From positions 1 to 24,626 of the forward strand of contig JAGGVT010000220.1 in the NCBI GenBank assembly GCA_021157815.1: a DNA stretch of 24,626 nt, read 5' to 3'. The notes under the pieces were generated by a model. That model was given only the letters and a program-made list of their open reading frames with translations. It made no database searches and was not told where the DNA came from. This document shows positions 6,998 to 24,138 of the stretch, piece after piece. Each line of letters opens with the position of its first letter. The stretch's first letter is position 1. Both the position numbers and the translations under genes were made by a program. Origin of the DNA: a bacterium (GTDB lineage Bacteria > JAJVIF01 > JAGGVT01).

Positions 6998-7483
6998 ATG
7001 AGATTGCCAAACACAAACCAAAACATGAGTGCGTTTTTAAACCTGTCAATTGCCGCGGTGATTCTTGCGATTGGATTTTTCCTTGGCAGTTTGGTTTCGG
7101 TGTCACCGACATCGGCCGCGGGGAGCACTGTTGGATTCATCGACATTGAAGCTCTTCTCGAAATGCATCCGGGATGGACTCCAATAATGGAGAAGATTAC
7201 CGCATATGAAAACAAAGAGCTGCAGAAACTCGAAAAGTACAAGGGCGGGAATCTGACTGAAGAGGAAAAGAAAGAATCCATCGACCTTGCATTGAACATT
7301 CGTGAAAACATTAATGCAAAACGAAAGGAACTTTCCAAACCGCTTTTGGATGACATTCTGCAGAAAGCGAAAAAAATAGGCCGCCAGATTGGCGTTGAGG
7401 TTGTTCTTGACGGCGCGATTGTTCTTTACGGCGGTGTTGACCTGACATCGGCTGTTTATGATGAACTGGAGGCAAATCTTTAA
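6998..7483 (+). CDS. skp: Skp/OmpH-family periplasmic chaperone
   Basis: A 161-residue protein with an N-terminal hydrophobic segment (about 12-34) and likely cleavage after TSA near residue 40. The mature start is GFIDIEALLEMHPGW, as in OmpH/Skp. A helical, Lys/Glu-rich middle (60-130) corresponds to the tentacle coiled coil, and the ending VEVVLDGAIVLYGGVDLTSAVYDEL (134-157) matches the family's closing strands. The family binds unfolded outer-membrane proteins and hands them to the BAM complex. GAGGA lies 4 nt before the ATG. The coiled coil is shorter than in E. coli Skp. It sits in the bamA-skp-lpxD order common in diderm bacteria. Confidence 0.85.
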   Translation: MRLPNTNQNMSAFLNLSIAAVILAIGFFLGSLVSVSPTSAAGSTVGFIDIEALLEMHPGWTPIMEKITAYENKELQKLEKYKGGNLTEEEKKESIDLALNIRENINAKRKELSKPLLDDILQKAKKIGRQIGVEVVLDGAIVLYGGVDLTSAVYDELEANL

Positions 7484-7488
7484 TATTA

Positions 7489-7620
7489 TGCGACCTCTGA
7501 AAAAGGAAGAGATGATGTTGGTTTTAATAAACGAAAAAAATGGATTCCGGGCCAAGCCCGGAATGACAAGCAAATGTCATTCCGGCGAAAGCCGAAATCC
7601 ATCCTTTTTCAGAGGTCGCA
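7489..7620. repeat. Palindromic MITE-like insertion with perfect 19-bp terminal inverted repeats
   Basis: TGCGACCTCTGAAAAAGGA (7489-7507) recurs perfectly inverted at 7602-7620. Inside, a 29-bp arm at 7540-7568 and a 28-bp arm at 7575-7602 are imperfect inverted copies and each is itself a hairpin (CCGGGCCAAGCCCGG; CCGGCGAAAGCCG). The right outer and inner arms are contiguous, while the left ones are split by 33 nt (7508-7540), as if an originally continuous palindrome had gained an insertion. The inner arms belong to the family also present at 24516-24590. No transposase is present and I see no clear target-site duplication. A 74-codon open frame over it (7458-7682) is not a gene. Confidence 0.75.
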
Positions 7621-7627
7621 ATTTTGA

Positions 7628-7657
7628 AATAGCAGAAGGTTTTAACCTTCTGCTATT
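7628..7657. repeat. 14-bp perfect palindrome (hairpin) after the MITE-like element
   Basis: AATAGCAGAAGGTT (7628-7641) and AACCTTCTGCTATT (7644-7657) are exact inverted copies separated by 2 nt. In RNA the loop would open to about 4 nt. No T-run follows on either strand, so it is not a classical terminator. It could be a dispersed palindromic repeat or an mRNA-stabilising hairpin inside the operon. Confidence 0.7.
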
Positions 7658-7674
7658 GAAAAAAACAGTGTCTT

Positions 7675-8448
7675 ATGTATAAACGTAATCCATACATAGC
7701 AGCGATAATGCTCGGACTCGTGATTGGCGGGATAATTTGGTCAGTGATTTTTATCATGCGATACCTGCTTCAAAATCCGATTGAGAAACTCGATATGGCG
7801 GATTTGCCATCAGAGGTAACGCGGTTCGATAGAAATGAATTCACGCCGTTCGAATCGGCTGATGAGCTGGCATGTTTGGAATTGCCTGACAGGTTGCCTC
7901 CGGGAACACGCCAATTTGTTTTCAGGTTCGATAAGGGCTTCACATCACTAAAAAGCAACGAGGAGAAATACACAATTGCCGCTGAAACTAAATCAGCGAT
8001 TGACCCGTTGAGGGATGAAATGCTTCGGGCGAAACTACGTGAATTGATAGATATCAAATCGGAATATGAACAGTCACGCAGAGAACTCGCTACCGGGATA
8101 CACGGCAATCTGATTGAGGAAGTTGGCACAAGCTTATTCAAATATAACGCTTATCAGAAACTTGCGTCAGAATCCCTCTCTTACAGCATGGAAACGACAA
8201 ACGTTTTTCCAATCAGGCAGGCGGAGGCGGTAAGCGAATTTTATGAGTCGCAAAAAGAGTACGCTGGCATGAAACTGGATAGTTTCAATTCGAAATTCAC
8301 TCAGGCGGTTGAAGAGGACATTGGTAATCTGAAACAGAATCAGGACAAATTGAAAGAAGAAAAAGTGATGGAAATTCGCGATTACATTCTGGAAAAAACA
8401 GCGAAGATTGAGGAAGAGATTCGCTCATCTAATGGGCATGACGATTAG
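7675..8448 (+). CDS. Membrane-anchored coiled-coil protein of unknown function
   Basis: A 257-residue protein with a basic N-terminus and one hydrophobic segment (about 8-29), then a periplasmic part. From about residue 112 to the end it is almost entirely charged helix ([53 protein letters not shown]), consistent with a long coiled coil. There is no cleavage motif, so it is probably an inner-membrane-anchored periplasmic protein. The layout resembles a larger, tethered analogue of the Skp-like protein encoded before it, but I see no family signature. The ATG has no obvious ribosome site; the palindromic insertion upstream may have displaced the original one. It ends 8 bp before the likely lpxD ATG. 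Confidence 0.75.
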
Positions 8449-8456
8449 CCGTGAAC

Positions 8457-9461
8457 ATGATTAAACTAAAAGAAATAGCACAGAGCATAAACGCTGAAAT
8501 CATCGGTGATGGAAACCTGCCGATTAATGGTATCAGCTCTATTGAATCTCCAAAAGAGATGACAGTGCTTTTCGCCGAGCGAATGTCAATGCTTAAGGAT
8601 GTTGAATCGTTAACCAAAATCGGAGTAATCGTTGCAGAAAAACCGGATGGCATCAAGGGGAATTTCCTGGTTCATCCAAATCCGCGGGCGGCATTCGCGA
8701 TGGTTACGCGCAGATTCAATCCGCCGTACTGGCTGGGATACTGCGGAATCAGTGGGCATGCTGAGCTCGAGGGAAATGTGCAAATATCCCCAAGCGCGGT
8801 TATTTGCGACAACGTATTTATTGGAACGGGCACATCTGTCGGAGATAACACTCGGATTTTACCAAACGCGCATGTTGGCAGAGATGTTTCAATCGGGCAG
8901 GACTGTGTGATTTTCCCGGGCGCGATGTTGCTTGATGGCGTAACAATCGGCGACAGAGTAATTATCAATTCAAACGCGGTTATCGGCAGTGAGGGATTCG
9001 GATTCGTGAAGTTGGACGACACTCTTGTGAAAATGCCGCAGACAGGTTCAATTGTTATTGGCGATGATGTTGAAATAGGCGCATCCACCTGTATCGACAG
9101 GGGAACTATAGGCAACACGGTAATAGGCGCGGGGACAAAAATCGACAACCTTGTTCAGATTGCGCATAACGTTGAAATCGGGAGGAACGTTCGTATTGCG
9201 GCGCAGGTGGGAATACCCGGACGTGTGCATGTAGAGGATGATGTAATCATCGGCGGACAGGCGGGTTTGCAAAACGGAATTACGATCGGCAAAGGCGCGA
9301 GAATAGCGGGACAGTCCGGTGTTTTTAAGTCGGTACCGGAAGGCGAGTCGGTTTCCGGTTATCCGGCGCTGCCTCATAAACAGGCGTTGGCGCTTATTTC
9401 GCATTTTAAAAAACTGCCGCGCATGTTCGAGAGAATTAAGGAGCTGGAGCAAAGAAAATGA
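8457..9461 (+). CDS. lpxD: UDP-3-O-acylglucosamine N-acyltransferase LpxD
   Basis: LpxD adds the second hydroxyacyl chain, from acyl-ACP, to the amino group of the UDP-3-O-acyl-sugar in the lipid A pathway. The 334-residue chain starts [19 protein letters not shown], the usual N-terminal uridine-binding domain. It continues into left-handed beta-helix hexapeptide repeats (about 100-290, e.g. [26 protein letters not shown]). The catalytic His is in QIAHNVEIG (H237). GFGFV (181-185) and SGYPALPHK (300-308) are family landmarks. A GTG at 8451 is an alternative in-frame start giving two more residues; the ATG fits the family better. The stop overlaps the lpxA start as ATGA. Confidence 0.95.
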
Positions 9462-10390
9462 AAATACATGAAACAGCCATAATTGACAGCAAAGCTGAAA
9501 TAGGCTCGGGAACATCGATAGGGCCCTACGCAAGGGTTGAAGGTGATGTTGTCATCGGCAAAGATTGCGAGATAATGCAGGGTGCGCAGATTCTCACGGG
9601 AGCGCGGATAGGCGATCGCTGCTGCTTTCACCAGGGCACTGTTATCAGCTCTCTTCCACAGGATAAAAAATTCACGGGTGGGCGATCGTTTCTGAAAATC
9701 GGTGATGACAGTGTTATTCGCGAATACGCCACCATTTCCCGGTCAACGCAGCCGGATGGTTCAACTGTCATCGGAAAAAACGCTTATATCATGACCGGCG
9801 TTCATATCGGGCACGATTGCAAAATCAGCGATAGCGTTACGATGGCGAATCTGGTTACACTTGCGGGGCATGTTACAGTCGAAAAACTCGCGACAATCGG
9901 CGGCATGACGGTAATTCACCAGTTCGTGCGCGTTGGTGAACTTGCGATGGTAGGCGGCGACAGCGGTTTGATGATGGATGCTCCGCCTTACATGATTACT
10001 TTCGGTTATGCTCCGGCGCGTGTTTACGGCATAAATTCAATAGGGTTAAGACGAAACGATATTGATGAAGATACACGGATGCTTCTCAAACGGGCATATA
10101 AACTGCTGTTTAGAAGCAAACATAATTTCTCGCAGGCTGTTGAGATAATCCGGAAGGAAATGCCGCAAAGTGACACAATAAAACATCTTGTTGAGTTTTT
10201 CAAAAACACAAAACGCGGGATTTCCGTATCAGCCAATTCCATGAAAATGTCCGGTTATCATGCTCATAACGGGCATAGTGAATCGCATTTCGATTCCCTC
10301 CTGGAGATAGTCAAGGATGAAAAAGTAGTAAGGGAGATCATGTCGTTTCTTGAGACAAAAACAGGGGATACGGACGGGTATGCGAATTAG
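9458..10390 (+). CDS. lpxA: Acyl-ACP:UDP-N-acetylglucosamine O-acyltransferase LpxA, with C-terminal extension
   Basis: First enzyme of lipid A synthesis; transfers a 3-hydroxyacyl chain from ACP to the 3-position of UDP-GlcNAc (or to the 3-amino group of its diamino analogue). Hexapeptide beta-helix over about 1-180. The catalytic His is H119 in HIGHDC, aligning with E. coli H125, and G167 in VGGDSG aligns with E. coli G173, the hydrocarbon-ruler position, where Gly goes with a long (C14) chain. The helical C-terminal domain reaches [10 protein letters not shown] (247-256), where most LpxA proteins stop. Here about 54 more residues follow, including His-rich [14 protein letters not shown] and a short helix. 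The 310-residue length compares with about 260 for the family. The start overlaps lpxD by 4 bp; no lpxC or fabZ lies between them. Confidence 0.95.
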
Positions 10391-10476
10391 CGATAAACAA
10401 TGCCAAATGGGGATGTTATAAATTAAATTCCTAATAGCCAGTGATTAATTCCTGGTTGAGAGGTAAAGCTCGAAAC

Positions 10477-11475
10477 ATGATAAAAAACAGACAAATAAAA
10501 GCAGCGGTTATCGGTGTCGGACAGATGGGAGTGCATCACGCGAGAATTTATTCGCGGATGGCTGGAGTCGATCTGGTTGGAATTTCCGACATTGATGAGG
10601 AACGCGGTAATTGGGTGGCATCGCGCTTTAATACAAAATACTTCAAAGATGCTGAGACGCTGTTGAAGAAAAAGCCAGACGCGGTAACCATCGCGGTTCC
10701 GACATCGCTGCACAGGGAAATTGCAGATATGGCGCTGGATTACAATGCCAACCTGCTTGTCGAGAAGCCGCTTGCGGATAACACAAAAAACGCGTGGGCG
10801 ATTATCAAAAAAGCGAAAAGTGAAAAACGAGTTTTAATGGTCGGGCATATCGAGAGGTTCAATCCCGCGATAGAGTCCCTGAAGAACCTTCTGGCGCTTG
10901 GAACAATGGGCAAAATAAAAAAGATAAGCACTCTCAGGGTGTCGCCTTATCCGGTAAGAATCAACGATGCGGGAATCATTCTCGATGTCAGCTGCCACGA
11001 CATTGATCTAATCAGCTATCTCACGGGAAGCAAGGCGAAAAGCGTTTCCGCGGATGCGAAACAGGAATTTCATAAATACGAGGACGAAGCGAAAATTAGT
11101 TTAAACTTCGAGGACGGCATCAATGCTGTTGTTGAAACAAGCTGGCATTATCCGTATAAAAACAGGCGTCTTCTTTTAATGCTGGAAAAAGGCGCAATTC
11201 TAATTAACTTCATGCGGCAGTCGCTGACAATTTACAATTCCGATGGCGCTGTTTCCGTGCCCGTACATTCCGGGGAGCCGCTTTCAATCGAACTTCACGC
11301 GTTTATCGATACCGTCGCGAATGACAAGCCGTCGCCTGTAAACGGTGAGGACAGCATTTACACTCTCGATGTAACTTCATCAGCAGTTAAATCGTACAAG
11401 GAAAATAAACAGATTAAACTTGGCAATAAGACAACAAACAACACCTATAAGTCTCCTGTACTTGCCATGATCTGA
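10477..11475 (+). CDS. Gfo/Idh/MocA-family oxidoreductase, UDP-GlcNAc 3-dehydrogenase-like (GnnA-like)
   Basis: A 332-residue NAD(P)-dependent sugar oxidoreductase. The Rossmann motif GVGQMGVHHA is at 13-22, the catalytic Lys in EKP (96-98), the substrate-side landmark GHIERFNP at 123-130, and the D170/H174 pair in DVSCHDIDL. GHIERFNP and the DxxxHD segment are shared with UDP-GlcNAc 3-dehydrogenases. In Acidithiobacillus ferrooxidans gnnA and gnnB lie between lpxA and lpxB and make UDP-GlcNAc3N, so position here supports a GnnA role; gnnB is not in the window. I chose ATG at 10477 over GTG at 10441 because the Rossmann fold then starts at the normal distance and GAGAGGT lies upstream (12 nt). 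The 86-bp gap from lpxA carries a TGTTATAAA extended -10-like sequence (10414-10422), too weak to call. Confidence 0.85.
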   Translation: MIKNRQIKAAVIGVGQMGVHHARIYSRMAGVDLVGISDIDEERGNWVASRFNTKYFKDAETLLKKKPDAVTIAVPTSLHREIADMALDYNANLLVEKPLADNTKNAWAIIKKAKSEKRVLMVGHIERFNPAIESLKNLLALGTMGKIKKISTLRVSPYPVRINDAGIILDVSCHDIDLISYLTGSKAKSVSADAKQEFHKYEDEAKISLNFEDGINAVVETSWHYPYKNRRLLLMLEKGAILINFMRQSLTIYNSDGAVSVPVHSGEPLSIELHAFIDTVANDKPSPVNGEDSIYTLDVTSSAVKSYKENKQIKLGNKTTNNTYKSPVLAMI

Positions 11476-11476
11476 T

Positions 11477-12709
11477 ATGGCATCCGCACCCCGTATATTC
11501 ATTTCCACAGGCGAATTGTCAGGTGACTATCACGCCTCCAACCTTGTCAGGGCAATTCGAAATCAATCTCCGGACGCGACTTTCCTTGGTGTCGGCTCAC
11601 ACAATATGAAATCAGCGGGAGTTGAAATCCTGCATGATTCCTCAAGCTGGGGAGGAATTGGAATCTGGCAGGGACTAAAAAAAGGCCCTGCGATTAACAG
11701 GATTCGGCATAAACTAATAGGCGAAATTCCCAGGCTCGATTTGGATTTGATAATAGTTGTCGATTACCGCGTCTTTCACGCGGCGCTTCTGGACGGCATT
11801 AAACATATTGATGTCAAAAAATTGTATTACTTCGCGCCCGTTGTCTGGCCCGGATTTACGACACATGGAATCGGGAAACTATACGCCAATATTCTCGAAA
11901 GCCTGAAGAACATCAATCCGATTGGAGGAAAGGGAACGATAAATAGATTCGAGTCGTTAAGCGAACTCGCGGATAAATTGATTGTGGCGTACCCGTTCGC
12001 ACTGGATGATTATCTCAAAGCTGGCGCGGATGTTGAGTTCCTCGGGCATCCCCTGATGAACGCGATTAAAACGACATGCTCCAAAGAGGAGACTAGAAAT
12101 AAACTTGGACTGGATGAATCATCGAAACTGATAGGAATATTCCCCGGCTCGCGTGACCATGAGCTGGCGTCGCATCTGCCGGTTTTGAAAAAGGTAATCG
12201 CCGGATTGAAAAGTGAAATCGACGATCTGCATTTATACATGCCGATTGCGCATCCCGATCATAAAAGCGTTGTTGCCAAATTGCTCGGCGAACAGGCTGA
12301 TGGAATCCGGTTTGTATCGGGTGAGGATTACGGCATATTCAACGCAAGCGATATCGCGCTTTCCAAAACCGGAACGAGCGTACAGGTGTTAATGGCGCTT
12401 GGTGTTCCTACCGTGGCTTTTTATACGGTGGTTTCATCGCTCTGGTATAATATCTCAATCCGGTTTTTTGTGAATCTTGAGCACGCCGCTTTTCCGAACG
12501 TGCTGGCTGGAAAGAGAATCATTCCGGAATTTATTCAGGATGATTTCAAACCGGATAAATTATTAAGCGCGTCGCTGGAACTGCTTGCGGATGATGATGC
12601 CAGGTCCCGCATGACAAGCGAACTTCTAGCGGTGCGTAACAGCCTTTACAAACAGGATGCGCTCGAAAAAGCGGCGGCAATAGCGCTGGAACTGGCTGAG
12701 AATACATAA
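11477..12709 (+). CDS. lpxB: Lipid-A-disaccharide synthase LpxB (divergent)
   Basis: LpxB condenses UDP-diacyl-sugar with lipid X to the disaccharide. Of its 410 residues, family landmarks are visible: STGELSGDYHASNL (10-23, for AGExSGDxxxA), GVGSHNMKSAG (38-48), YYFAPVVW (117-124), AYPFALDDYLKAGADVEFLGHPL (171-193), IFPGSR (221-226, with R226) and FPNVLAGKRIIPEFIQ (339-354). Several key places differ. The usual IDxPDFN is VDYRVFH (95-101), SGTATLE is TGTSVQV (298-304) so the family Glu is missing, and about 30 extra residues sit at 131-162. It could be a divergent true LpxB or a GT19-related enzyme; the operon position favours LpxB. It begins 1 nt after the upstream stop and abuts msbA. Confidence 0.82.
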   Translation: MASAPRIFISTGELSGDYHASNLVRAIRNQSPDATFLGVGSHNMKSAGVEILHDSSSWGGIGIWQGLKKGPAINRIRHKLIGEIPRLDLDLIIVVDYRVFHAALLDGIKHIDVKKLYYFAPVVWPGFTTHGIGKLYANILESLKNINPIGGKGTINRFESLSELADKLIVAYPFALDDYLKAGADVEFLGHPLMNAIKTTCSKEETRNKLGLDESSKLIGIFPGSRDHELASHLPVLKKVIAGLKSEIDDLHLYMPIAHPDHKSVVAKLLGEQADGIRFVSGEDYGIFNASDIALSKTGTSVQVLMALGVPTVAFYTVVSSLWYNISIRFFVNLEHAAFPNVLAGKRIIPEFIQDDFKPDKLLSASLELLADDDARSRMTSELLAVRNSLYKQDALEKAAAIALELAENT

Positions 12710-14812
12710 ATGAAAGGCAAGAATCCAAACAATAATCCGAAAACGCTTCGGAAGATATTTCAGCTTCTTCAACCTGTAAAGGCGTTGCTGATTATTGCAC
12801 TCATTTGTACAGCTTTTTCCTCAGGATTCCAGCTTGCTACAATTAAAATGGCTCAGTATTTCATCGATGATGTCTTGCCGTCAATTGAACAACAGGTAGA
12901 GCAAATTGAAATCTCTGAAGAGCAAATTGTATCTCTGAAAGAATCATGTCCCGTTGTTGCTGATTTAAAGGATGAAGAGGTAGCATTAGTTGTAAAATTA
13001 CTTCAAGCGGAAAATACTTCAATAGCTATCAAAATTCAGGATTTAAAAAATAGAGATCCGTTTTTTAATAACCTGGAAGATGAGGATATCTCCGAATTAA
13101 TTAAAACGGTTGATGATTATGAACCATCAACAATACAAAATAAAATTGACAAAACCTTATCAGGATATTTCCAGTCGATAGATGTTCGCTCATTTATTTT
13201 CATTGTTATGATTTTGTTTGTTTCCTATGGTGTAACTCATGGTATTGGCATGTTTTTATCAGTGTTGTTAGGACAGAAGGTTGTACTGAATCTCAGGATG
13301 ACGATTTTTAATCATCTTCAGGAATTAAGTTCTAACTTTTATGAAGATCAACAAACGGGTGGAATAATGTCCTGGTTGACAAATGATATTAATGTTTTCA
13401 GGATGTTCTCATCCAATCAATTAAACAGCTTTGTGCAGAATTCCGTATTGGTTCTTGGCGCTTTGATTGGTTTGTTTTTCATCAGCTGGCAGCTCGCATT
13501 GGTTTCGTTTTGTATCGTACCGCTGCTTGGAGTGGTTATTCATTATGCGGGAAGCCGCATGAGAAAAGCAACACGGCGTGTTCAGGAAAAACTCTCGGAC
13601 ATTTCCTCAGTGCTGCACGAGGTTATAAGCGCTATTCAGATTGTGAAATCATTCGGAATGGAATCACATGAGGTTGGTCGTTTTAAAAATGAGAACGTTC
13701 AGACATACAAAGCGGAAATGAAGAAAGCCTGGATATCCGCGCTTCTGCAGCCTGCAATCCAGATGGTTGTTGCTATTGGGATAATGGTGATTTTGTTGAT
13801 CGGTATTAATCAACTGTCAAATGGGATACTTCAAACCGGACAGCTGATTGTATTCGTTACGTTTTTACATATAGTTAGTGATAAAGGCAAACGTCTGGGG
13901 CAGACATACGCAAACCTGAATGAACTGTTTGCCGCTGGTGATCGGATATTTGAATTCCTCGATGTTAAATCTGACATTGTTGAAATCGAGAATCCGGTTG
14001 AACTTGCTGATGTAAAGGGGGACGTAACGTTTAGGAATTTGAGTTTCTCCTATGATAATTCCGATCTGGTTTTGAAAAACATTAATATTGCTGTGCCATC
14101 CGGAAAGGTGATTGCGCTGGTAGGCCCATCAGGAGCGGGAAAATCATCGATGGGAAAACTTCTGCCCAGATTCTATGACCCTACAGGCGGACAGGTTCTT
14201 GTTGACGGTGTTGATATAAAAACAGCGTCGATCAAAAGCCTCAGAGCGCAGTTGGGAATCGTGCCGCAGGAAACGATTCTCTTCAGTACAACGATTAGGG
14301 AGAACATTGCGTACGGCAGGCTGGATGCGTCGATGGAGGATATTATAGAAGCGGCGAAAGCAGCGAACGCGCACGAATTTATAACCAAACTTCCGGATGG
14401 CTATGATACGCTTGTTGGGGAGAGGGGATCAAAACTGTCCGGCGGACAGGCGCAGCGCGTTTCGATCGCGCGAGCGATTCTGAAAAATCCACGGATTCTT
14501 ATTCTCGATGAGGCGACCAGTTCACTTGACGCACAAAGCGAGGAACTTGTCCAGCAGGCGTTGGAAAAACTGATGGCTGGGCGAACGACTTTTATAATTG
14601 CCCACCGGCTGACTACAATTAAAAACGCGGATGAGATAATCGTTCTGAGCCAGGGGGAAATCGCGCAGCGCGGAACGCATGAGGAGCTAATGGGTGTCGA
14701 TGGAATCTACAGGAATCTTTATCAGATGCAGTCCGTAGGCGCGAACGGTGATATCGACAACAGGAGCAGTCATTCAGATAAACCTGATTATTCCAGAGAG
14801 GATGATTCATGA
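12710..14812 (+). CDS. msbA: Lipid A export ABC transporter MsbA-like, with large periplasmic insertion
   Basis: A 700-residue ABC half-transporter that should flip lipid A-core across the inner membrane. The membrane domain spans about 20-390. The nucleotide-binding domain has Walker A GPSGAGKS (472-479), Q-loop Q520, signature LSGGQ (576-580), Walker B ILILD-E (596-601) and switch H632, all intact. MsbA proteins are usually near 580 residues. The excess is mainly an acidic, helical segment at about 54-158 between TM1 and TM2, predicted periplasmic (residues such as EEQIVSLKESCPVVADLKDEE), plus a polar C-terminal tail (672-700). DNA over the insertion and the next helices (about 12870-13440) is visibly AT-richer than the neighbours. 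Its ATG directly follows the lpxB stop, and its end overlaps kdsB by 4 bp. General multidrug exporters have similar domains; context decides for MsbA. Confidence 0.88.
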   Translation: MKGKNPNNNPKTLRKIFQLLQPVKALLIIALICTAFSSGFQLATIKMAQYFIDDVLPSIEQQVEQIEISEEQIVSLKESCPVVADLKDEEVALVVKLLQAENTSIAIKIQDLKNRDPFFNNLEDEDISELIKTVDDYEPSTIQNKIDKTLSGYFQSIDVRSFIFIVMILFVSYGVTHGIGMFLSVLLGQKVVLNLRMTIFNHLQELSSNFYEDQQTGGIMSWLTNDINVFRMFSSNQLNSFVQNSVLVLGALIGLFFISWQLALVSFCIVPLLGVVIHYAGSRMRKATRRVQEKLSDISSVLHEVISAIQIVKSFGMESHEVGRFKNENVQTYKAEMKKAWISALLQPAIQMVVAIGIMVILLIGINQLSNGILQTGQLIVFVTFLHIVSDKGKRLGQTYANLNELFAAGDRIFEFLDVKSDIVEIENPVELADVKGDVTFRNLSFSYDNSDLVLKNINIAVPSGKVIALVGPSGAGKSSMGKLLPRFYDPTGGQVLVDGVDIKTASIKSLRAQLGIVPQETILFSTTIRENIAYGRLDASMEDIIEAAKAANAHEFITKLPDGYDTLVGERGSKLSGGQAQRVSIARAILKNPRILILDEATSSLDAQSEELVQQALEKLMAGRTTFIIAHRLTTIKNADEIIVLSQGEIAQRGTHEELMGVDGIYRNLYQMQSVGANGDIDNRSSHSDKPDYSREDDS

Positions 14813-15534
14813 AAGTGCTTGGTGTTATACCCGCCCGCTGGGGTGCGAAACGATTTCCCGGCAAAGCGCTAGCCCCTATACTGGGAAAGCCGATGATCCT
14901 GTGGGTTTTGGAAGGTGCATTGAAAGCGGAGCGCTTGGATGATGTTATTGTCGCGACCGATTCGGATGTGATTCATAAAACCGTTTCCGATGCGGGTTAC
15001 AAAGCGGCCATGACTAGTGAGGGCCATCCAAGCGGAACGGATAGAATCTGGGAGGTCGCCAGGAATCACGATTGCACGCACGTTTTGAACATACAGGGCG
15101 ATGAGCCTCTGTTGAAGGGCAGGACAGTTGATCAGCTGATATCAGTTCTGGACAAAAAACCTGAAATGAAAATGGCGACAATGATTACATCTTTGGATGC
15201 CAATGATGCCGGCGATCCCAATCGAGTCAAGGTTGTTGTCGATGATCAGGAAAAGGCTATATATTTCTCCAGATGCCCCATACCTTATTCTTTCAGCAAT
15301 ATGCCACATAATGAATATATGCTGCATATAGGGCTATATCTTTATGAAAAGCGCTTTTTAAAAGCCTTCATCGAGCATGGGCAGTCCCGGCTTGAAAAGC
15401 TCGAAAAGCTTGAGCAGCTTCGCGCGCTTTCGATGGGAGTTTCAATAGATGTCGTTCACACGTCTGACCGGATGATGGGTGTTGACGCGCCCGAGGATAT
15501 TCCGCTTGTTGAATCATTCCTGAAGGAGTCCTGA
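14809..15534 (+). CDS. kdsB: 3-deoxy-manno-octulosonate cytidylyltransferase (CMP-Kdo synthetase)
   Basis: KdsB activates Kdo as CMP-Kdo for WaaA. The 241-residue chain carries the nucleotide-binding signature VIPARWGAKRFPGK (6-19), VATDSD (48-53), HPSGTDRIWE (73-82), the metal-binding QGDEP (96-100, D98), RCPIPY (155-160) and the closing GVDAPED (224-230, for GVDTPED). Length is normal for the family. It starts inside the msbA stop (ATGA) and is followed 15 bp later by waaA, its immediate user. Confidence 0.95.
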   Translation: MKVLGVIPARWGAKRFPGKALAPILGKPMILWVLEGALKAERLDDVIVATDSDVIHKTVSDAGYKAAMTSEGHPSGTDRIWEVARNHDCTHVLNIQGDEPLLKGRTVDQLISVLDKKPEMKMATMITSLDANDAGDPNRVKVVVDDQEKAIYFSRCPIPYSFSNMPHNEYMLHIGLYLYEKRFLKAFIEHGQSRLEKLEKLEQLRALSMGVSIDVVHTSDRMMGVDAPEDIPLVESFLKES

Positions 15535-15549
15535 TATCGGGGATTAAAT

Positions 15550-16842
15550 TTGACAAAACCACCGCTGATATTCCATTTTCTAAAAGGGCTCTTGATTCTT
15601 GCCAGACCGTGGTATCCGTTTCTAACGTGCAGATTGGGCAAATCACCCGGATTGAAAGGTACGATGGAACCAAGATTGATGCGGGAGAAAATACAACCCG
15701 CGATTCCGCCATCGATATGGCTTCACGCTGTCAGTGTGGGAGAGGTGGAGGCGGCTATTCCAATAGCGTTGAGGATAATCAAGAGATGGGGCGCGGACAG
15801 TCTGCTTGTAACAACGACAACAAAAGAGGGATATGCGGTCGCACAAAAGAAAATAGTTGAACTAAAGCACCTGACATATTACCCGTTCGATATCCCGCAT
15901 ATAATCGATAAATTCCTGGATCATTACACGCCATCACTCTATATATGCATGGAAACGGAACTCTGGCCAATATTGACAAGCGCGTTGACGAAACGAAATA
16001 TCACGATGATTCTTGCCAACGGTCGAGTATCCGACAGGCTCAAAGGAACACCGTGGCTTCTAAGGCCGCTTTATCGCTGGATGTTTCAGGCATACAGCTG
16101 GATTGGGCTTCAAACTGACGAGGATTTTCAGCGATTGAAATCATTCACAAGTAAAATCGATAATGCTGTGGTTGCGGGAAATACAAAATTTGATCTGCCT
16201 GACCCGTCGCTAAAACCGGATGAAATAGCTGATTTAATGCGGACTATCGGTCTTCGTGATGGTTCGGTAATTGTATTCGGCAGTACTCATCCCGGTGAGG
16301 AAGAGATAATTGCGGATGTGTTTAATTCGTTAAAGGAACGCCTGAATGATATTTCAATGATTATCGCGCCCAGGCATATAACACGCGCTGACGAGGTGGC
16401 TTCTATTCTCAAAAGCGCTGGAATTACCTTTAATAATCGAACTGACACACTTGACGGAAAACATAATCACAAAAACGCGGATTGCCTTTTGCTGGATACA
16501 GTTGGAGAACTTACACGAATGTATTCGCTTGGGCAGATTGCGTTTGTCGGGGGGAGCTTAATTAAAAGGGGCGGACACAATCTTCTTGAACCTGCCGCCG
16601 CGGGATTGCCGGTTCTGCACGGGCCATATATGGACAACTTCCGGGCGATAACGTCCTTTCTACACAACGCAAACGCCGCATTGGAAGTGGCGGATGGGGA
16701 TGCTCTTAAAAATGCGATTTATGAACTTCTTTCAGATTCAAGCAAACTGGAGCGCATGAAACAGAATTCCCTGGACGCCTATGAAAAGGGCAAGGGCGCA
16801 ACGGATAGAATAATTTCGAAAATCGAGGAATTAATGCCGTGA
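15550..16842 (+). CDS. waaA: Kdo transferase WaaA (KdtA)
   Basis: Transfers Kdo from CMP-Kdo to the lipid A precursor at the inner membrane. The 430 residues have an N-terminal hydrophobic anchor (about 7-27). The motif IWLHAVSVGEVEAA (56-69) holds the catalytic Glu E65, aligning with E31 of Aquifex WaaA. Further motifs are METELWP (134-140), FGSTHPGEEE, APRHITRADEV and the nucleotide-binding GGSLIKRGGHNLLEPAAAG. The start is a TTG: no ATG or GTG is in frame between the upstream in-frame stop (15532) and the TTG, GGGGA lies 6 nt before it, and the next ATG would delete the membrane anchor. Length is normal. Whether it adds one or more Kdo units cannot be told. Confidence 0.95.
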   Translation: MTKPPLIFHFLKGLLILARPWYPFLTCRLGKSPGLKGTMEPRLMREKIQPAIPPSIWLHAVSVGEVEAAIPIALRIIKRWGADSLLVTTTTKEGYAVAQKKIVELKHLTYYPFDIPHIIDKFLDHYTPSLYICMETELWPILTSALTKRNITMILANGRVSDRLKGTPWLLRPLYRWMFQAYSWIGLQTDEDFQRLKSFTSKIDNAVVAGNTKFDLPDPSLKPDEIADLMRTIGLRDGSVIVFGSTHPGEEEIIADVFNSLKERLNDISMIIAPRHITRADEVASILKSAGITFNNRTDTLDGKHNHKNADCLLLDTVGELTRMYSLGQIAFVGGSLIKRGGHNLLEPAAAGLPVLHGPYMDNFRAITSFLHNANAALEVADGDALKNAIYELLSDSSKLERMKQNSLDAYEKGKGATDRIISKIEELMP

Positions 16843-17915
16843 CCGAACGAGACTACAGGACATATAAAAAAGGATTATCAGAGAGAAAGTCGGGAAACGT
16901 ATTGACATCGAAGATTGCAAGATTGTTTGAACTTGTCTCTCACAGGCGCATTATGTCCCGGTCACTGGAAAAAACAAAACTCGACGCGAAGCTTGTAAGT
17001 GTCGGAAATATTACTTTTGGGGGAAGCGGGAAAACTCCCCATGTTGAATTTCTTGCATTTCATTTTGCACAGCGAGGCTTGAAAACAGGCATAGCGACAG
17101 GCGGTTGGGGCGGCTCGGCACGAAAGGAGGGGATACTTGTATCAGATGGCGATAAAATATACACGGATTTTGAATCAGCAGGCGATGAGGCAATGTCGAT
17201 TTCTGAAAGCGTTTTGGAAATCAGCGTTCCTGTATTCGCGCACTGGAACAGGATTATTGCGGCGGAAGAGCTTATAAATCGGTTCAACTGCGATGCTGTA
17301 ATTCTGGATGACGCATATCACTTTGTATCGGTTGAAAAGGACGCGGACATTCTTCTTGTAGATTCGCTTAATCCTCTTGGTGGAGGGCATCCGCCGAATA
17401 CCGGTTTAATGCGGGAACCGATAAGCGCAATTGCGAGGGCCGATGCGATAATCCTAACGCACGCTGACCTGGTGGAAAAAGATTCTTTGGATGAACTGAA
17501 GGCACTGATTAAAACTGAGAAGTTCGAGAATCCCGTATTCGAATCATCGTATGAACCTCAATCTATCGCCTGTGTTTATGGGGATGACATCGGCATGGAA
17601 AAACCTCAGAATGCGAAACTGATTCCACTGTCGGGACTAGGCAATCCGGAATCTTTTGAAAAGTCGCTTGCAACTGCGGGAGTTGTAAATGCAAATCCAA
17701 TTAGATTCAACGATCATAACATATACACGCAAAAGGATTTGGATTTAATCAATGCCGCTATTGATGAGGATTCCGCGGATGGTGTGGTTACGACATCGAA
17801 AGACTTGATACGAATAAAGAATCATGCTGATAAGATCAACGGAAGCATATATGTTTTACATTCTGAAATAATCGTGGACAGCGATTTTCTGGAATGGCTT
17901 GATGAGAGGGTTTAA
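16839..17915 (+). CDS. lpxK: Tetraacyldisaccharide 4'-kinase LpxK
   Basis: Phosphorylates the 4'-position of the lipid A disaccharide on the cytoplasmic membrane face. The 358-residue chain has the LpxK P-loop GNITFGGSGKTPH (56-68), GDEAMSISE (115-123), ILDDAYHF (155-162, where most relatives have ILDDGFQH) and PNTGLMREP (186-194, for LPAGPLREP). The lost Gln of the DDGxQH motif is unusual, but the two Asp and the His remain. The start is GTG overlapping the waaA stop (GTGA), with GAGGA 9 nt upstream; no nearby ATG fits. It is the last gene of the plus-strand cluster and converges with rsmA across 18 bp in which I see no terminator. Confidence 0.93.
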   Translation: MTERDYRTYKKGLSERKSGNVLTSKIARLFELVSHRRIMSRSLEKTKLDAKLVSVGNITFGGSGKTPHVEFLAFHFAQRGLKTGIATGGWGGSARKEGILVSDGDKIYTDFESAGDEAMSISESVLEISVPVFAHWNRIIAAEELINRFNCDAVILDDAYHFVSVEKDADILLVDSLNPLGGGHPPNTGLMREPISAIARADAIILTHADLVEKDSLDELKALIKTEKFENPVFESSYEPQSIACVYGDDIGMEKPQNAKLIPLSGLGNPESFEKSLATAGVVNANPIRFNDHNIYTQKDLDLINAAIDEDSADGVVTTSKDLIRIKNHADKINGSIYVLHSEIIVDSDFLEWLDERV

Positions 17916-17933: not shown

Positions 17934-18794
17934 TTAATTCCCTTGTTTTTCGATTTCTTCAAACAGCCTGGTAAATTCATCAAGAGACAAACACTCGGCG
18001 CGAATCATCTTATCAAGCCCAATCATCTCAATAATTGACTCAACGCATTTCTTGTCAACTCCCAGATGCCAGTTCTGAAGGTTGTTAGCGAGAGTTTTGC
18101 GTTTCATTGAAAACGATTGCTTTATCATCGAAAAGAATTTCTTCTTATTGTCAGCATTGAATCTGAATTTGTCTTTGGTAACAAGTTTCAAAACTCGCGA
18201 GCCAACTTTCGGCTGCGGATAAAAAGCTCCGGCGTCAACATTGACAACACCAGTAACCTTGCAATGATAATCGCAAAATACGGAAAGACGTCCGCGCGCT
18301 TTTGTTCCGCAGTCAGCTGTGATTCTATCAGCGACTTCACGCTGCATCATAAGTAGTGTTTCCGAAGGCAGTGGGGGAGAGCTGAAAATCCTTTCAAGAA
18401 TCGGCGATGTAATCTGATAGGGAATATTTCCAATGACTGCGAAGCTTCGATCTTCCAGATTATCAGGCGGATACTCATTAAGGAAATCGCCATGAACAAG
18501 CACATTATCGCAATGCTGCGCAAGTTCCTTTTCAAGCCAATCACGGAGAACCTTGTCAACCTCATAAACAATAAAATTCGAAACGCCGCTTGCAATCGGG
18601 ATTGAGAGCGCGCCAAGTCCGCCTCCTATTTCAATAACAGTGCTATTCTTCTCAAGGTCGATTAAATCAAGAATGCGATTGCGAATGGTATCGGAGATTA
18701 AAAAATTCTGTCCAAGTGATTTGTCGGGGCGTATAGCAAGTTTGCGTTTTACAGAATGTGTGAACTCATTAAGGCTTTTTGTGTTGTAAGTCAT
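17934..18794 (-). CDS. rsmA: 16S rRNA (adenine1518/1519-N6)-dimethyltransferase RsmA (KsgA)
   Basis: Dimethylates two adjacent adenines in the last hairpin of 16S rRNA during small-subunit assembly. The 286 residues carry KSLGQNFL (25-32), the SAM-binding motif EIGGGLGAL (55-63), acidic E78, the GDF motif with D103, the catalytic NIPY (123-126, variant of NLPY), QREVADR (151-157), FYPQPKVGS (191-199) and KRKTL (231-235). Length is normal. It is the last gene of the minus-strand set, 19 bp downstream of the metallopeptidase fusion; no strong ribosome site is visible, so coupling to that gene is likely. Confidence 0.96.
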   Translation of the reverse strand: MTYNTKSLNEFTHSVKRKLAIRPDKSLGQNFLISDTIRNRILDLIDLEKNSTVIEIGGGLGALSIPIASGVSNFIVYEVDKVLRDWLEKELAQHCDNVLVHGDFLNEYPPDNLEDRSFAVIGNIPYQITSPILERIFSSPPLPSETLLMMQREVADRITADCGTKARGRLSVFCDYHCKVTGVVNVDAGAFYPQPKVGSRVLKLVTKDKFRFNADNKKKFFSMIKQSFSMKRKTLANNLQNWHLGVDKKCVESIIEMIGLDKMIRAECLSLDEFTRLFEEIEKQGN

Positions 18795-18813: not shown

Positions 18814-21273
18814 TTATGAGCCAGTTTGCGCTGCGTCATAGATTATATTTGTCAGGTTGAGCATGTTAAGTTCGATCGGCTTGCGCCCCAAGTCAAGCCA
18901 TGTCCAGACGATTCTATCACGCCATTTAAGAACCTTTGCTTTCTCCGCTTCCGATAATTCGTAATCCTTGTTGAATACGCTGTCAGTCCAGAGGTAGGCG
19001 AGTTCATACTGCTCGCTTCTGAACGCCGATTCGATAAGCGACAGGTCAGCCGCTTTTGTAAACATATCATCATAACCATACATTGCGAGAAATCGTTTTA
19101 GGAATTCGACCGACTCCCCGTATTCCCCATCAATCCAGAGCGAACGCCCAATAAGGTAAACAGCGGGCCAGAAATTCGCGTCAATCATAAGTGCCTGTTG
19201 ATAATAAAACCTGGGGTCGGATGTTTCAGTGTCAAGCGCCTTGAACATCAAACGCCTGAGTTCATCGGATTCATGGTCAAGAATAGCGAGTTTGATTATG
19301 CTGTCTCGTTTCATTGATGCTGAGATTGCCTTATCAAGCGCTTTTTGAACCTCGACGCGGCAATCCGACCATCTCTGTTGTTTCGCGAGAATGATTCCCC
19401 TTCTGCGCAGCAGCTGCGCTTTGTAGCCATCGTTCGATTTAGGATGCGCCATCAGTTCCGAAGCCAGTTTAAGCGCCTGATTATAGTTTTCCAATCCGAC
19501 AAGCGCGGATATTTTCCCCCAGCCATGATAAGGATCATCAGGTTGGAATTTTATTAGCGCGTCATAATCTCTGAGCGCCTTTTTGTATTGCTTGTGTTGA
19601 AGCGCTTTTAACGCCTCCGCGTTTCTCTCAGCAACCTCATGCGAACATCTCTGCTCAGTGAAAGCGGGCCGCTGGAACATGTATTGCGCGAGAGCGGCGC
19701 CTTCATCCGCCTCGGGAATTGTTTTTAAAAATTGAAGCCACTCCTCGGTAAGTTCCTGAAGGGTTTTATCGTACGCCGCCTTGTACGGTTTGTCTGAGAA
19801 GAACAATCCGGCTTTTATAAAACAGATTTTGAATTTCTCGACTCCGTAAGTGTCAATAAGCCATCTGACAAACGAGCCGGAAATATAATAGGAAACAGTA
19901 ATTCGCTGCGACCAGAATCCCTCGTTAGTCATTGTATTAATGGGGCTTGCGCGATTATCGATTTCGCCTTTCATAATTGACTGTGCCCACTGGTGATGGG
20001 TCAACGCTCCGGCATCCCACTCGCTTGCCTCGCTGAGACCTTCGCACAAGCCGGTCTGAAGGCTGATGTTCACAATCGACCTGCCAAATTCACCAGCGAG
20101 TATGTGTGTCAATTCGTGTTTAAGAGCGCGGATATCATAATCGGAATACTCAACATGAATCATCGCCATCCACGGCTTAGCGAAAACCGACCCGCCGACG
20201 CCTGTGAGTTTCGTTTTCTGTGCTCGTGTTGGATAGATGTAACACGTAACAACCGGCGGGTTTTCAAGTTTCAGTTCCTCGACAATCCTGGCGTAATGCC
20301 ATTCATGTTCCTTTAGGATACGATTCATTTCACCCGTTATTGGCGAATCGGATGGATAGCGTAGTTCAATTCCTTTTCCAACAAGGCGGCCATCCATCAG
20401 TTTATTCAAATACGCGGTGTTAATGTCGATTCCAAGTGGCCCTTTGTAGATAAAAAGGATAACGAGGTAGATAATAACAATCCCGTTGATTAAAGTTAGC
20501 AGGTATCGCAAGGCATTTGTAAAAGGTGATTTAAACAATCCTTTGAGAAATACCCCGGGAAGATTTCTTTCATATCCAAGAATTGAGAGGAAGAAAGTAA
20601 GATACGCGAAAGTGAATGCGATTGATCGCGCGAGCAGAAACGGTGCATCAATTGGTACAACTGTATTGTAATTAAACAGAACAACAGAACCGAGTATGAA
20701 ATTATAAAATCCGACACGAGGGCCGGCATATAGTTTCCAGAGTGTTACAAGAATTGTCAGGATGGAGTATGCCAGAAACAGGAGGTATCCGCGCTTTGCG
20801 TTACCCTTGGAAAACAGAGTAAACGAGGTTGCCATTAAAAGAGCGCACAAACCGGTTACAACCGGAATAAGAAGGTAGAACAAGATTCCCTGCATGATGT
20901 TGCAGTTGGTTATATGAAAAGCGTTTAGAAGAAGCACTGCCAGTGGAATCGCTGCAAGGAACGACATAATCACAACCAGCGCCCGGTTTCGAGCGAACAA
21001 AACAAGTGCGAACTCACGTTCAGTGTATTTCTTAAGTTCTATTTTCTTTTGGAGTTGTGATGTTTCATACGCCGCAATCAATGCAATAATCTGCGACAGG
21101 AAAATTGAAATCAAGATGCTGAATTCGTAGCCGAGAAGATTCAACATCGCCTCGCCGCTGAAAGCGCATCCGAGTGACACCAACAGCAGAAACAATGCAG
21201 CAAGATACAAACTTTTCGATTTAAACCACCGTTTTAAACAGCTTTTGAATTCCTCTTTAAAAACCTTGTCCAT
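18814..21273 (-). CDS. Polytopic membrane protein fused to HExxH metallopeptidase and TPR-like domains
   Basis: An 819-residue protein with three modules. Residues 1-280 hold about seven or eight hydrophobic helices (near 22-38, 50-69, 97-117, 128-151, 161-181, 190-201, 211-233, 254-277), with a cytosolic-looking basic N-terminus resembling ABC-2-type permease subunits. Residues about 300-520 form a gluzincin (peptidase MA-like) domain: HELTH (386-390) gives two zinc ligands and the catalytic Glu, E411 in CEGLSEASEW is the likely third ligand, and SYYISGSFVRWLIDTYG (461-477) is a typical substrate-side helix. Residues about 548-765 are helical repeats of TPR type (ALKALQHKQYKKALRDYDAL; EYGESVEFLKRFLAMYG). 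The peptidase and TPRs are probably periplasmic. The ATG directly follows the queC stop. I know no characterised protein with this arrangement. Function unknown; envelope protein turnover is a guess. Confidence 0.85.
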   Translation of the reverse strand: MDKVFKEEFKSCLKRWFKSKSLYLAALFLLLVSLGCAFSGEAMLNLLGYEFSILISIFLSQIIALIAAYETSQLQKKIELKKYTEREFALVLFARNRALVVIMSFLAAIPLAVLLLNAFHITNCNIMQGILFYLLIPVVTGLCALLMATSFTLFSKGNAKRGYLLFLAYSILTILVTLWKLYAGPRVGFYNFILGSVVLFNYNTVVPIDAPFLLARSIAFTFAYLTFFLSILGYERNLPGVFLKGLFKSPFTNALRYLLTLINGIVIIYLVILFIYKGPLGIDINTAYLNKLMDGRLVGKGIELRYPSDSPITGEMNRILKEHEWHYARIVEELKLENPPVVTCYIYPTRAQKTKLTGVGGSVFAKPWMAMIHVEYSDYDIRALKHELTHILAGEFGRSIVNISLQTGLCEGLSEASEWDAGALTHHQWAQSIMKGEIDNRASPINTMTNEGFWSQRITVSYYISGSFVRWLIDTYGVEKFKICFIKAGLFFSDKPYKAAYDKTLQELTEEWLQFLKTIPEADEGAALAQYMFQRPAFTEQRCSHEVAERNAEALKALQHKQYKKALRDYDALIKFQPDDPYHGWGKISALVGLENYNQALKLASELMAHPKSNDGYKAQLLRRRGIILAKQQRWSDCRVEVQKALDKAISASMKRDSIIKLAILDHESDELRRLMFKALDTETSDPRFYYQQALMIDANFWPAVYLIGRSLWIDGEYGESVEFLKRFLAMYGYDDMFTKAADLSLIESAFRSEQYELAYLWTDSVFNKDYELSEAEKAKVLKWRDRIVWTWLDLGRKPIELNMLNLTNIIYDAAQTGS

Positions 21274-21954
21274 TTATTCATCGCCCTCGTATGGTATGGG
21301 ATCATCAAATCCCGCATCCTCAAACGCTTTCAAGCGAAGGATACACGAGTCGCAGACACCGCACGCTTTTTCGGTATTTTGATAACAGCTCCATGTCAGT
21401 TCAAAAGGCACATTAAGCTCCATTCCTTTTCTAACTATTTCGGCTTTTGTAAGATGCATTACAGGCGCTATGATGTTCAGATTTGTTTCGGGACGTGTGC
21501 CCTCGTTAACAGCCTTGTTAAATGCTTCGATGAACGATTCCCGGCAATCGGGATAACCGGATGAATCCTCCTCCACGATGCCGATGAAAATCGCCGATGC
21601 TCCAAGTACCTCAGCCCAACTGACCGCGGCGCTGAGAAGATGTGCGTTTCTGAATGGGACATAAGTATTCGGTATCCGGGTTTTATCTATGCCGCCTGTG
21701 TGAATGTCAATGTCAGGATCAGTCAGTGCGCTTCCGCCTATTTGTGTTAAATGCGACAGCGAAAATGCCATGGTTTCGTTTATGCCGTAGTGGTTTGTGA
21801 TATCGCGAAACGCCTTTATTTCCCTGTCCTGCGTGAGTTGCCCGTAATAGGCATGCATCGCGGCGACATCATATTTCTCAAGCGCGATTGCGAGTGTAAC
21901 AGCGGAATCCATCCCACCACTCACAAGGCAAATAGCTTTCTGTTTTTTCGGCAT
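21274..21954 (-). CDS. queC: 7-cyano-7-deazaguanine (preQ0) synthase QueC
   Basis: Converts 7-carboxy-7-deazaguanine to preQ0 with ATP and ammonia, a step in queuosine synthesis. The 226 residues carry the PP-loop SGGMDS (12-17), RIPNTYVPFRN (93-103), GIVEEDSSGYPDCR (125-138) and a complete four-Cys zinc site (C190, C198, C201, C204 in SCYQN...CGVCDSC). GGTGA lies 6 nt before the ATG. On the same strand a perfect TATAAT at 21996-22001 is suitably placed, but no -35 box matches. No queD, queE or queF is nearby, and the genes that follow (membrane peptidase, rsmA) have no queuosine link, apart from rsmA also acting in RNA modification. Confidence 0.96.
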   Translation of the reverse strand: MPKKQKAICLVSGGMDSAVTLAIALEKYDVAAMHAYYGQLTQDREIKAFRDITNHYGINETMAFSLSHLTQIGGSALTDPDIDIHTGGIDKTRIPNTYVPFRNAHLLSAAVSWAEVLGASAIFIGIVEEDSSGYPDCRESFIEAFNKAVNEGTRPETNLNIIAPVMHLTKAEIVRKGMELNVPFELTWSCYQNTEKACGVCDSCILRLKAFEDAGFDDPIPYEGDE

Positions 21955-22167: not shown

Positions 22168-24138
22168 ATGAAACTAAGATACCTGTTGCTTCTATTACTG
22201 ATTTTCGCTAGTTTTATTCTTGTGTCATGCTCGAACAATGGCAAAGGTAAGAATGTCCTTGATGAAAATCCGTTGGCTCTGCCCGCATCTCACGAGGGAA
22301 CACAGGGCTATGCCGACTGGGGAGATTTCACTATCCAGCTGGATATCGAGAATCGGAAGGCAGAACTTATCCCAAATCGAGATTCGGACATACATCTTGA
22401 TGTCAACCCGTATCTCGCCGGTGGTGACCTGAACGTATCTTTCGTAAGCTGGGATCCTGTTACATATGAACTGAAACTTGATTTCGAACTGAATAATCCG
22501 ACCAACCTCAGTGTAAGCGATGTGAGATTGATATTCACAGATTTCGCTCAAGTTTCTTATCCGCAATATCTTATTGAGCCCGACAGCTGGACCACCGCCA
22601 TGACAGGCAATGTCAGGCCATTCCTCGCATTCAAGAAGGATATAACTAACAGGGTGTTTTCAGGATTAGATTCGGAAACTCTGACTGCACGAATATACTG
22701 GCCTCCGGGAAGTCCGTTTATGCTGAATTTCAAGGTTACGGCATGGTTGTGGCTTAATTGCCAGGATGTATATGAGATTAACAACATGGGCCAATCAGGG
22801 CGCTTGTTCCAGAATTCAGGAACATCAATTATAAGCTGTTATCCAAAGGACTGGCAAAATGATGTTTTCCAAGTCAGATTGTGGGCAAATGCGTTGACTG
22901 GTGAAATTCATGAAATGACCAAAGAGGGACTTTTCTGGGAATATGAGCTAACGAACATACTTAACAAGCCTCCGGGATTATACCAAGTCTGGATCGAGGC
23001 AATTTCTCCGAATCCGCAGAATTATTCAACCTGGAATAAAATGTACATAAAAGTCGACGACTATGGATGGCAAAGTTCCCCCAACTATTATCATGGTGAA
23101 ATTAGCTACGGATCATACGATATTGCCTGTTATGCCTACGATGGCTATGACCGGGTTAATATTCTGAGTGGCAAAGGAAATGCGACAGGTTGGATATCCC
23201 ATTCTCCAGGTATTAATCATAGCGCCCAGGATCTGGTTAACCTCAAGAATCTTGATCCCAATTATCCGGCATATCAGCCGTGGTGTCCTGAGAAAATTGA
23301 TGCTGCTAAGGATGGCGCGTTTGCCTGGACAAATCTGAACCATACCATATGGTACAGTTTCTACAAGAACTATAATACATTGTCGTTTATGCGAAACTCC
23401 CTGATTTTCGCGTATGAACCTCTTTATAATGATAACCGTGCTCTCTGGTATCAGGGGGGTACTGAAAATGGGCTTGTCCCGTATGACGTTTGTGATACTT
23501 TTGCGGGAAGGCTGGGCGCCTTGATGGCATATAACGGGCCAAATAAAACAGCAGTGATTGCTGTTTATGATGGGCCGGCTACTGGAAATTACAACTATTT
23601 CGACCGAGACTTAAATGGATTTAATCAGTTTACCTCGACAATGTTCGGTTCCGATGATGGGCAGATTATTCTTCAATTCACATCCGGTATTGACATTATG
23701 GAAACGGATGTACCTGGCGAATATCTTGTCTTTCTTTCCCAATATTATGTCAGCAAGATTGAAGTTTTCAAGATGGTGGTTGGCAGCACTAACATTGAAT
23801 ATGTTGATACTATTCACATTTCATACATGGGTGAACCTGCTCCAATAGATATTGAGCTTCTGCCAGCGAATCCAGACTATGATCCTGCCCCTGACACTGA
23901 CATTTTGTGTGTGCTGGTGGACAGGCAGGAAGTTAACGGGCAAACTGGTGGAATTGTTTTGATGTATGATGCCAATACGCGCAATTATCTGGGATCAATT
24001 GGCGATCCAAGCGTTCCAGCATGTCCATTTCCCCCTAGACGGATGGATACAGATGATGACAGTTTCTCAATTGTGATATCACAACAGAGCAATGCTTCAA
24101 TGATATTAACACAGTGGACATATTACGAAGTTCCCTAA
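22168..24138 (+). CDS. Large surface/periplasmic lipoprotein of unknown function
   Basis: A 656-residue secreted lipoprotein: a Leu-rich signal (1-20) ends in lipobox LVSC, with C21 as the lipidated residue; Ser at +2 would allow outer-membrane sorting under the E. coli rule. Residues about 45-190 are beta-rich (FTIQLDIENRKAELIP; LKLDFELNNPTNLSVSDVRLIF), like an immunoglobulin or cadherin-type domain. A second beta-rich section lies at 190-300 (CYPKDWQNDVFQVRLWANALTGE). The C-terminal half is rich in Tyr, Trp and Gly with short strand-like blocks that could form a propeller, though I cannot define blades. No catalytic motif seen. AGGTGA lies 7 nt before the ATG. It is monocistronic in appearance, divergent from queC and followed by the 24169-24378 element. 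Confidence 0.82.
   Translation: MKLRYLLLLLLIFASFILVSCSNNGKGKNVLDENPLALPASHEGTQGYADWGDFTIQLDIENRKAELIPNRDSDIHLDVNPYLAGGDLNVSFVSWDPVTYELKLDFELNNPTNLSVSDVRLIFTDFAQVSYPQYLIEPDSWTTAMTGNVRPFLAFKKDITNRVFSGLDSETLTARIYWPPGSPFMLNFKVTAWLWLNCQDVYEINNMGQSGRLFQNSGTSIISCYPKDWQNDVFQVRLWANALTGEIHEMTKEGLFWEYELTNILNKPPGLYQVWIEAISPNPQNYSTWNKMYIKVDDYGWQSSPNYYHGEISYGSYDIACYAYDGYDRVNILSGKGNATGWISHSPGINHSAQDLVNLKNLDPNYPAYQPWCPEKIDAAKDGAFAWTNLNHTIWYSFYKNYNTLSFMRNSLIFAYEPLYNDNRALWYQGGTENGLVPYDVCDTFAGRLGALMAYNGPNKTAVIAVYDGPATGNYNYFDRDLNGFNQFTSTMFGSDDGQIILQFTSGIDIMETDVPGEYLVFLSQYYVSKIEVFKMVVGSTNIEYVDTIHISYMGEPAPIDIELLPANPDYDPAPDTDILCVLVDRQEVNGQTGGIVLMYDANTRNYLGSIGDPSVPACPFPPRRMDTDDDSFSIVISQQSNASMILTQWTYYEVP

Follow-up and report, generated by a model that had tools for sequence, protein, structure and literature searches.

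Periplasmic proteases keep the envelope of two-membraned bacteria in order without ATP, and the NosDFY and FtsEX systems probably pass energy on to partner proteins in the periplasm. The membrane domains of ABC-2 transporters contact their ATPase at the cytoplasmic TM2–TM3 loop. In Myxococcus xanthus AM003 a 1200-amino-acid protein (L330:3500–7099) joins a long polytopic N-terminal part to an M1 peptidase. The gene immediately upstream of this ABC-2/M1 fusion encodes an ABC ATPase, the two together spanning L330:2594–7099. Such fusions carry the annotation 'ABC transporter permease/M1 family aminopeptidase' in other records, and the pair offers a natural ATPase-coupled comparison for the family described here. 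The Escherichia coli protein BepA, an M48 protease of the periplasm, has a TPR domain that forms a cup around its protease domain (PMC7950410). The 819-amino-acid protein analysed in this study combines an ABC-2-fold membrane domain, a gluzincin metallopeptidase domain and a TPR tail. No characterised family with this architecture was found in Pfam, NCBIfam, PDB sequences or the literature searched, and the same literature yielded neither biochemical or genetic work on any family member nor the term 'peptidase MA family'. The preliminary description had stated that no characterised protein is known with all three parts in this order; none was found, although its claim has to be tempered by the existence of the related ABC-2/M1 architecture.

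The gene occupies positions 18814–21273 of the window (the whole 24,626-nucleotide stretch analysed, a 24.6-kb contig from a genome of 3.2 Mb) and is read from an ATG start on the minus strand; the plus strand of this interval has stops throughout. The open reading frame and its length of 819 residues thus stand as first described, with the strand as a refinement. It is not a chance frame because relatives at 20–35% identity span its full length in many genomes, and the family profile reached E values down to 1e-300. Upstream, the TAA stop of queC (21274–21954, minus strand; PF06508, E=4.2e-71) directly abuts the ATG, and downstream rsmA/ksgA (17934–18794, minus strand; PF00398, E=2.6e-52) starts 19 nt past the stop codon, so that the coupling to queC and the position of rsmA were both reported correctly. 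This linkage is local, as the two other full-length members from the same class (L012 and L013) have different neighbours; it is context only and says nothing on the function of the 819-amino-acid protein.

Elsewhere in the window, positions 3752–17915 (plus strand) form a compact envelope/LPS island in the order bamA, skp-like, lpxD, lpxA, a Gfo/Idh oxidoreductase gene, lpxB, msbA, kdsB, waaA and lpxK; the Omp85 and POTRA domains of bamA were confirmed, and most of the other names were assigned by reading translations. Lying between lpxA and lpxB, the oxidoreductase gene occupies the place of gnnA, and the lipid A would then be of the GlcN3N type. A type IV pilin/pseudopilin-like protein (1215–2432, plus strand; N_methyl motif, E 5.7e-10) has an unusually long globular part of ~350 residues with no Pfam match, and three exported or membrane-anchored proteins with no Pfam match at E<=0.001 are encoded in or near the envelope region (5636–6979, 7675–8448 and 22168–24138, plus strand).

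The gene belongs to a widespread single-copy family and is no peculiarity of its source genome. A search seeded with the 819-amino-acid protein found relatives in 10 of 59 genomes, and profile searches found a single copy in 102 of the 117 genomes sampled from the phylum of G031 (taken as Myxococcota), in 76 of 84 of the phylum of G042 (taken as Poribacteria-type) and in 7/7, 7/9 and 2/2 genomes of the phyla of G038, G056 and G046 respectively; in a broad sample the gene was present in 35 of 385 genomes. Three of the four genomes sampled from the source genome's own phylum carry the full gene, and no full-length copy was found in the fourth (G003, 82% complete). A contig scan with a 4-row alignment placed the family in named records of Poribacteria, Latescibacterota, Dadabacteria, Desulfobacterota, Myxococcus, Corallococcus and Archangium, and further in Ignavibacteria, Chlorobiota, Bacteroidetes MAGs and Oligoflexia; the phyla covered also include Ignavibacteriota and Bdellovibrionota. 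The lineages that carry it are diderm. No relatives were found in viral contigs among the candidate stretches searched. In a quick tree the sequences grouped largely by phylum, the 819-amino-acid protein lying beside its class relatives and deep branches being weakly supported, and this phylum-wise grouping suggests old, mostly vertical inheritance. M. xanthus itself carries a member (L226), which makes the role of the family testable in a tractable organism. A record labelled 'Comamonas sp. KCTC 72670' (L216) contains a member 89% identical to that of M. xanthus, and this genome is probably mislabelled or contaminated.

The full-length AlphaFold2 model, built from an alignment of 45 sequences (pLDDT 89.9, pTM 0.88), has three parts, and in the model the order is an ABC-2-like membrane domain, then the gluzincin domain, then the TPR array. 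Together with the fold matches, it bears out the proposed three-part architecture in every part. A Foldseek search with the whole model gave TPR proteins first, and the membrane domain was consequently folded and searched alone. Residues 1–240 (20554–21273, minus strand; domain model pLDDT 89.9) comprise an N-terminal amphipathic helix and six TM helices in the ABC-2 (type V) exporter fold. Foldseek placed PmtCD and NosY first (best E 0.04, prob 1.00), and the best match listed in structural comparison of the domain folded alone was NosY (7o12_E; VIA Z 18.9, rmsd 3.1, 223 aligned), a Z score that indicates a shared fold and is by itself no proof of homology. All 50 matches listed were ABC exporters, with ABCG2, ABCA1 and others following NosY. 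By sequence, just one family member matched Pfam ABC2_membrane (E 0.03) and a PDB sequence search gave no match for this part, the ABC-2 character being visible by structure alone. A seventh TM helix (residues 250–275; 20449–20526, minus strand), helical in both models and coinciding with a family hydropathy peak at 264, would lead the chain out to the periplasm; of the 'seven or eight' helices first suggested, the models and hydropathy support seven and not eight.

The mean number of Lys and Arg residues per loop, averaged over 45 members, was 2.2, 0.1, 3.9, 1.2, 2.3, 0.4 and 3.6, and this alternation leads to a predicted topology with the N-terminus inside, seven TM helices and the C-terminus outside. 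The charge bias predicts that the peptidase and TPR domains are located in the periplasm, in support of the suggestion that the peptidase is secreted and tethered to the inner membrane. Glu50, Cys124, the GxxxGPxYD loop, the peptidase, Cys543 and the TPR array are all predicted to be outside. Judged from the family alignment, conservation of the membrane domain is one-sided and concentrated on the three periplasmic loops, which average 1.72–1.96 bits per position. The TM5–TM6 loop (residues 184–213; 20635–20724, minus strand) has a mean of 1.95 bits, with 20 of its 30 positions above 1.5 bits, and contains the family motif GxxxGPxYD, at which the 819-amino-acid protein itself reads GSVVLFNYN. 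Glu50, Gly195 and Arg216 are almost invariant among the 163 distinct members. Cys124 (20902–20904, minus strand), in the predicted periplasmic TM3–TM4 loop, is almost invariant in the family alignment and invariant in the 4-row alignment (A4), and Cys543 (19645–19647, minus strand), at the junction of the peptidase and TPR domains, is kept in 162 of 163 members. Of the 160 members with a residue aligned at each of these positions, 158 have both cysteines, and in four members the sole cysteines in the aligned region are the equivalents of these two. The simplest reading of this co-conservation is probably a Cys124–Cys543 disulfide.

The peptidase domain spans residues 279–522 (19708–20439, minus strand). 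It matched PF13485 (Peptidase_MA_2) at 27.7 bits (E 2.9e-6) within the whole protein and at 30.8 bits (E 3.2e-7) when searched alone, still below the gathering cut-off of 32.4 bits, and 21 of 37 family members match this profile at E<=0.01. In the AlphaFold2 model, residues 278–522 align with a Vibrio collagenase (8jt1; Z 15.6, rmsd 3.7, 224 aligned), so that the gluzincin fold expected around residues 386–411 is present. The predicted zinc-binding and catalytic HELTH motif lies at residues 386–390 (20104–20118, minus strand), and Glu411 (20041–20043, minus strand), part of an EG motif in the next helix (407–418), is the presumed third zinc ligand; both are positioned as first reported. Tyr462 (19888–19890, minus strand) is a candidate transition-state-stabilising residue, by analogy with gluzincins in general. 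His386, Glu387, His390, Glu411, Gly412 and Tyr462 are invariant in 163 of 163 distinct members despite a mean column identity across the family of ~33%. On the basis of HExxH, Glu411 and the modelled fold, the domain is a gluzincin (peptidase clan MA(E)) with predicted activity. Inspection of residues 358–378 revealed no GxMEN-type motif ahead of HExxH, which makes an endopeptidase more likely than an aminopeptidase, and Pfam searches of the 819-amino-acid protein gave no match to the M1 profile PF01433 and none to the M48 profile PF01435 at E<=1. The C-terminal TPR-like array noted earlier corresponds to a solenoid of residues 544–794 in the model (18892–19644, minus strand; TPR_2, E 2.2e-5); fold matches to residues 535–670 reach a Z of about 16, and Pfam TPR models match 27 of 45 members.

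The invariant catalytic set, the predicted outside location, the TPR tail and the one-sided conservation together point to a membrane-tethered periplasmic endoprotease. We propose, with moderate confidence, that the protein is an inner-membrane-anchored periplasmic zinc endoprotease that is built on an ATPase-free, ABC-2-derived platform, carries a TPR array and acts in envelope quality control or processing. The N-terminal ABC-2 domain, having lost its ATPase, would serve as a platform facing the periplasm, and the seventh TM helix would carry the chain outward to the gluzincin domain. The TPR solenoid may select or hold substrates, while a probable Cys124–Cys543 disulfide would fasten both the protease and the TPR array to the membrane domain on its conserved periplasmic side. 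We infer endoprotease activity and the class of substrate, the likeliest job being quality control of envelope proteins that emerge at, or are stuck in, the inner membrane, or else their processing. Its working mode may be comparable to that of BepA, as a protease with TPR, but tethered to the membrane. A bolder version, which we offer as tentative and on balance doubtful, is that the family represents a distinct class of membrane protease in which an ABC-exporter fold no longer uses ATP and is disulfide-stapled to a periplasmic gluzincin–TPR unit; the fold itself would draw substrates that bear lipids or membrane anchors out of the inner membrane and hand them to the protease. With its catalytic set intact and no functional annotation, the family would be a missing component of envelope upkeep.

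Perhaps the strongest competitor, although we consider it unlikely, is a dedicated processing or regulatory protease for one envelope target, such as a lipoprotein, a pilus or an LPS-assembly factor, with no part in general quality control. One copy per genome and conservation in specific phyla would fit such a role, as would the recurrence of export-pathway neighbours (lspA, an SPase-II-like gene and ffh) and of a DUF4440 lipoprotein in Myxococcota. In a Dadabacteria-type clade (L165, L166, L167, L171, L178, L183 and L202) lspA (Peptidase_A8, E 2.4e-40 at L167) comes after the family gene, accompanied in most loci by riboflavin synthase (ribE); the SPase-II-like gene adjoins the family gene at L019, and ffh, encoding the SRP GTPase, is directly upstream at L156 and abuts the family gene at L157. 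In Myxococcota a divergent PilZ gene is recurrent and the DUF4440 lipoprotein gene lies downstream in many loci, and PEGA-type kinases complete the clade-specific neighbours. A further, conserved cluster (L018, L152, L153 and L199) consists of genes for a lipoprotein, the family protein, a ~880-amino-acid protein and a C-terminal-processing-protease-like protein, with a PEGA-type Ser/Thr kinase gene upstream in several. However, each of the linkages cited for a dedicated target may be a single evolutionary event inside one clade. The comparison of loci found no operon partner conserved across phyla, the recurrences being clade-specific; a survey of homologues for conserved neighbours, as the preliminary description had suggested, thus gave none that extend to several phyla, and the class of the 819-amino-acid protein shares none of the linkages cited.

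Another possibility is that the protein is an ATP-driven periplasmic protease, in which an ABC-2 homodimer pairs with an ATPase encoded elsewhere and the energy of cytoplasmic ATP hydrolysis is passed through the membrane to the protease, in the manner proposed for NosDFY and FtsEX. The fold, with its elbow-like N-terminal helix, does match ABC-2 exporters, NosY best of all, and the M. xanthus fusion, whose second membrane half shows weak sequence similarity, has its ATPase directly upstream. We nevertheless regard an ATP-driven mechanism as distinctly improbable, and an ABC ATPase was rejected as a neighbouring partner, being directly upstream in just one of 49 loci (L017), where it is accompanied by a separate ABC-2 permease. 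At L154 an ABC ATPase gene is found ~1.4 kb downstream of the family gene, with a DegP-like gene in between. The cytoplasmic TM2–TM3 loop of the family averages 0.45 bits per position with no column above 0.97, varies in length (down to 0–5 residues in a few rows of the alignment) and does not show the motif seen in genuine ABC-2 permeases, and the remaining inside loops are also weakly conserved. In a control set of 28 genuine ABC-2 permeases the same loop reached 1.8–1.9 bits with one Pro in 28/28, against 0.88 bits for the family subsampled to 28 sequences, in which the periplasmic loops reached 2.0–2.3 bits. The degenerate coupling loop and the near-absence of an upstream ATPase thus indicate that ATPase coupling has probably been lost while the ABC-2 fold was retained, and the family is a promising candidate case of an ABC-exporter fold put to a new use in the absence of an ATPase. 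An aminopeptidase or dipeptidase scavenger, whose membrane domain moves peptides in or out while the peptidase trims them, has the ABC-2/M1 fusion as its nearest architecture but is very improbable given the missing GxMEN motif and M1 match, the dissimilarity of the M. xanthus M1 region past the HExxH helix and the lack of an adjoining ATPase to power transport.

The tethered endoprotease that we favour resembles several known systems in part. The Vibrio/Grimontia collagenase, an M9 gluzincin, shares the gluzincin fold over residues 278–522 but is secreted, has 12% identity over the aligned part and has no ABC-2 membrane domain. A second Peptidase_MA_2 architecture (L020, in G035) is a 311-amino-acid protein with a signal peptide, the peptidase and a C-terminal TM helix; it belongs, on a weak match, to the same peptidase superfamily and has neither an ABC-2 domain nor a TPR tail. 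NosY of NosDFY, ABCG2, ABCA1 and PmtCD have the same fold of elbow helix and six TM helices, but each works with an ABC ATPase partner, whereas the 819-amino-acid protein has none fused or adjacent and a degenerate coupling loop. BepA likewise has a zinc protease followed by a C-terminal TPR domain, in the periplasm, and a plausible envelope quality-control role is common to both; the two are not relatives by family, BepA being an M48 protease and the present protein Peptidase_MA_2-like, and BepA has no ABC-2 membrane domain. The closest architecture is the ABC-2/M1 fusion, which also carries an ABC-2-like membrane part, a further hydrophobic segment and then a zinc peptidase in one chain. Its second membrane half aligned in register with residues 87–232 over 136 columns (hhalign E 1.2e-4, prob 55%), whereas a canonical ABC-2 permease and a ComEC-like protein gave probabilities of 0.5% and 0.3% against the family as controls. 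The fusion differs in having two membrane halves rather than one, an M1 rather than a Peptidase_MA_2-like peptidase (with no similarity between the two past the HExxH helix; hhalign prob 2.9%), no TPR match, an ATPase gene directly upstream and a coupling-loop-like motif, ERDAG...AP, that is lost in the 819-amino-acid family. On this weak similarity, the family may be a shortened cousin of the ABC-2/M1 proteins: one membrane half and the ATPase would have been lost, the peptidase is a different gluzincin, and a TPR tail would have been added. As a set, the three parts form a variant of the related ABC-2/M1 architecture and are not unprecedented.
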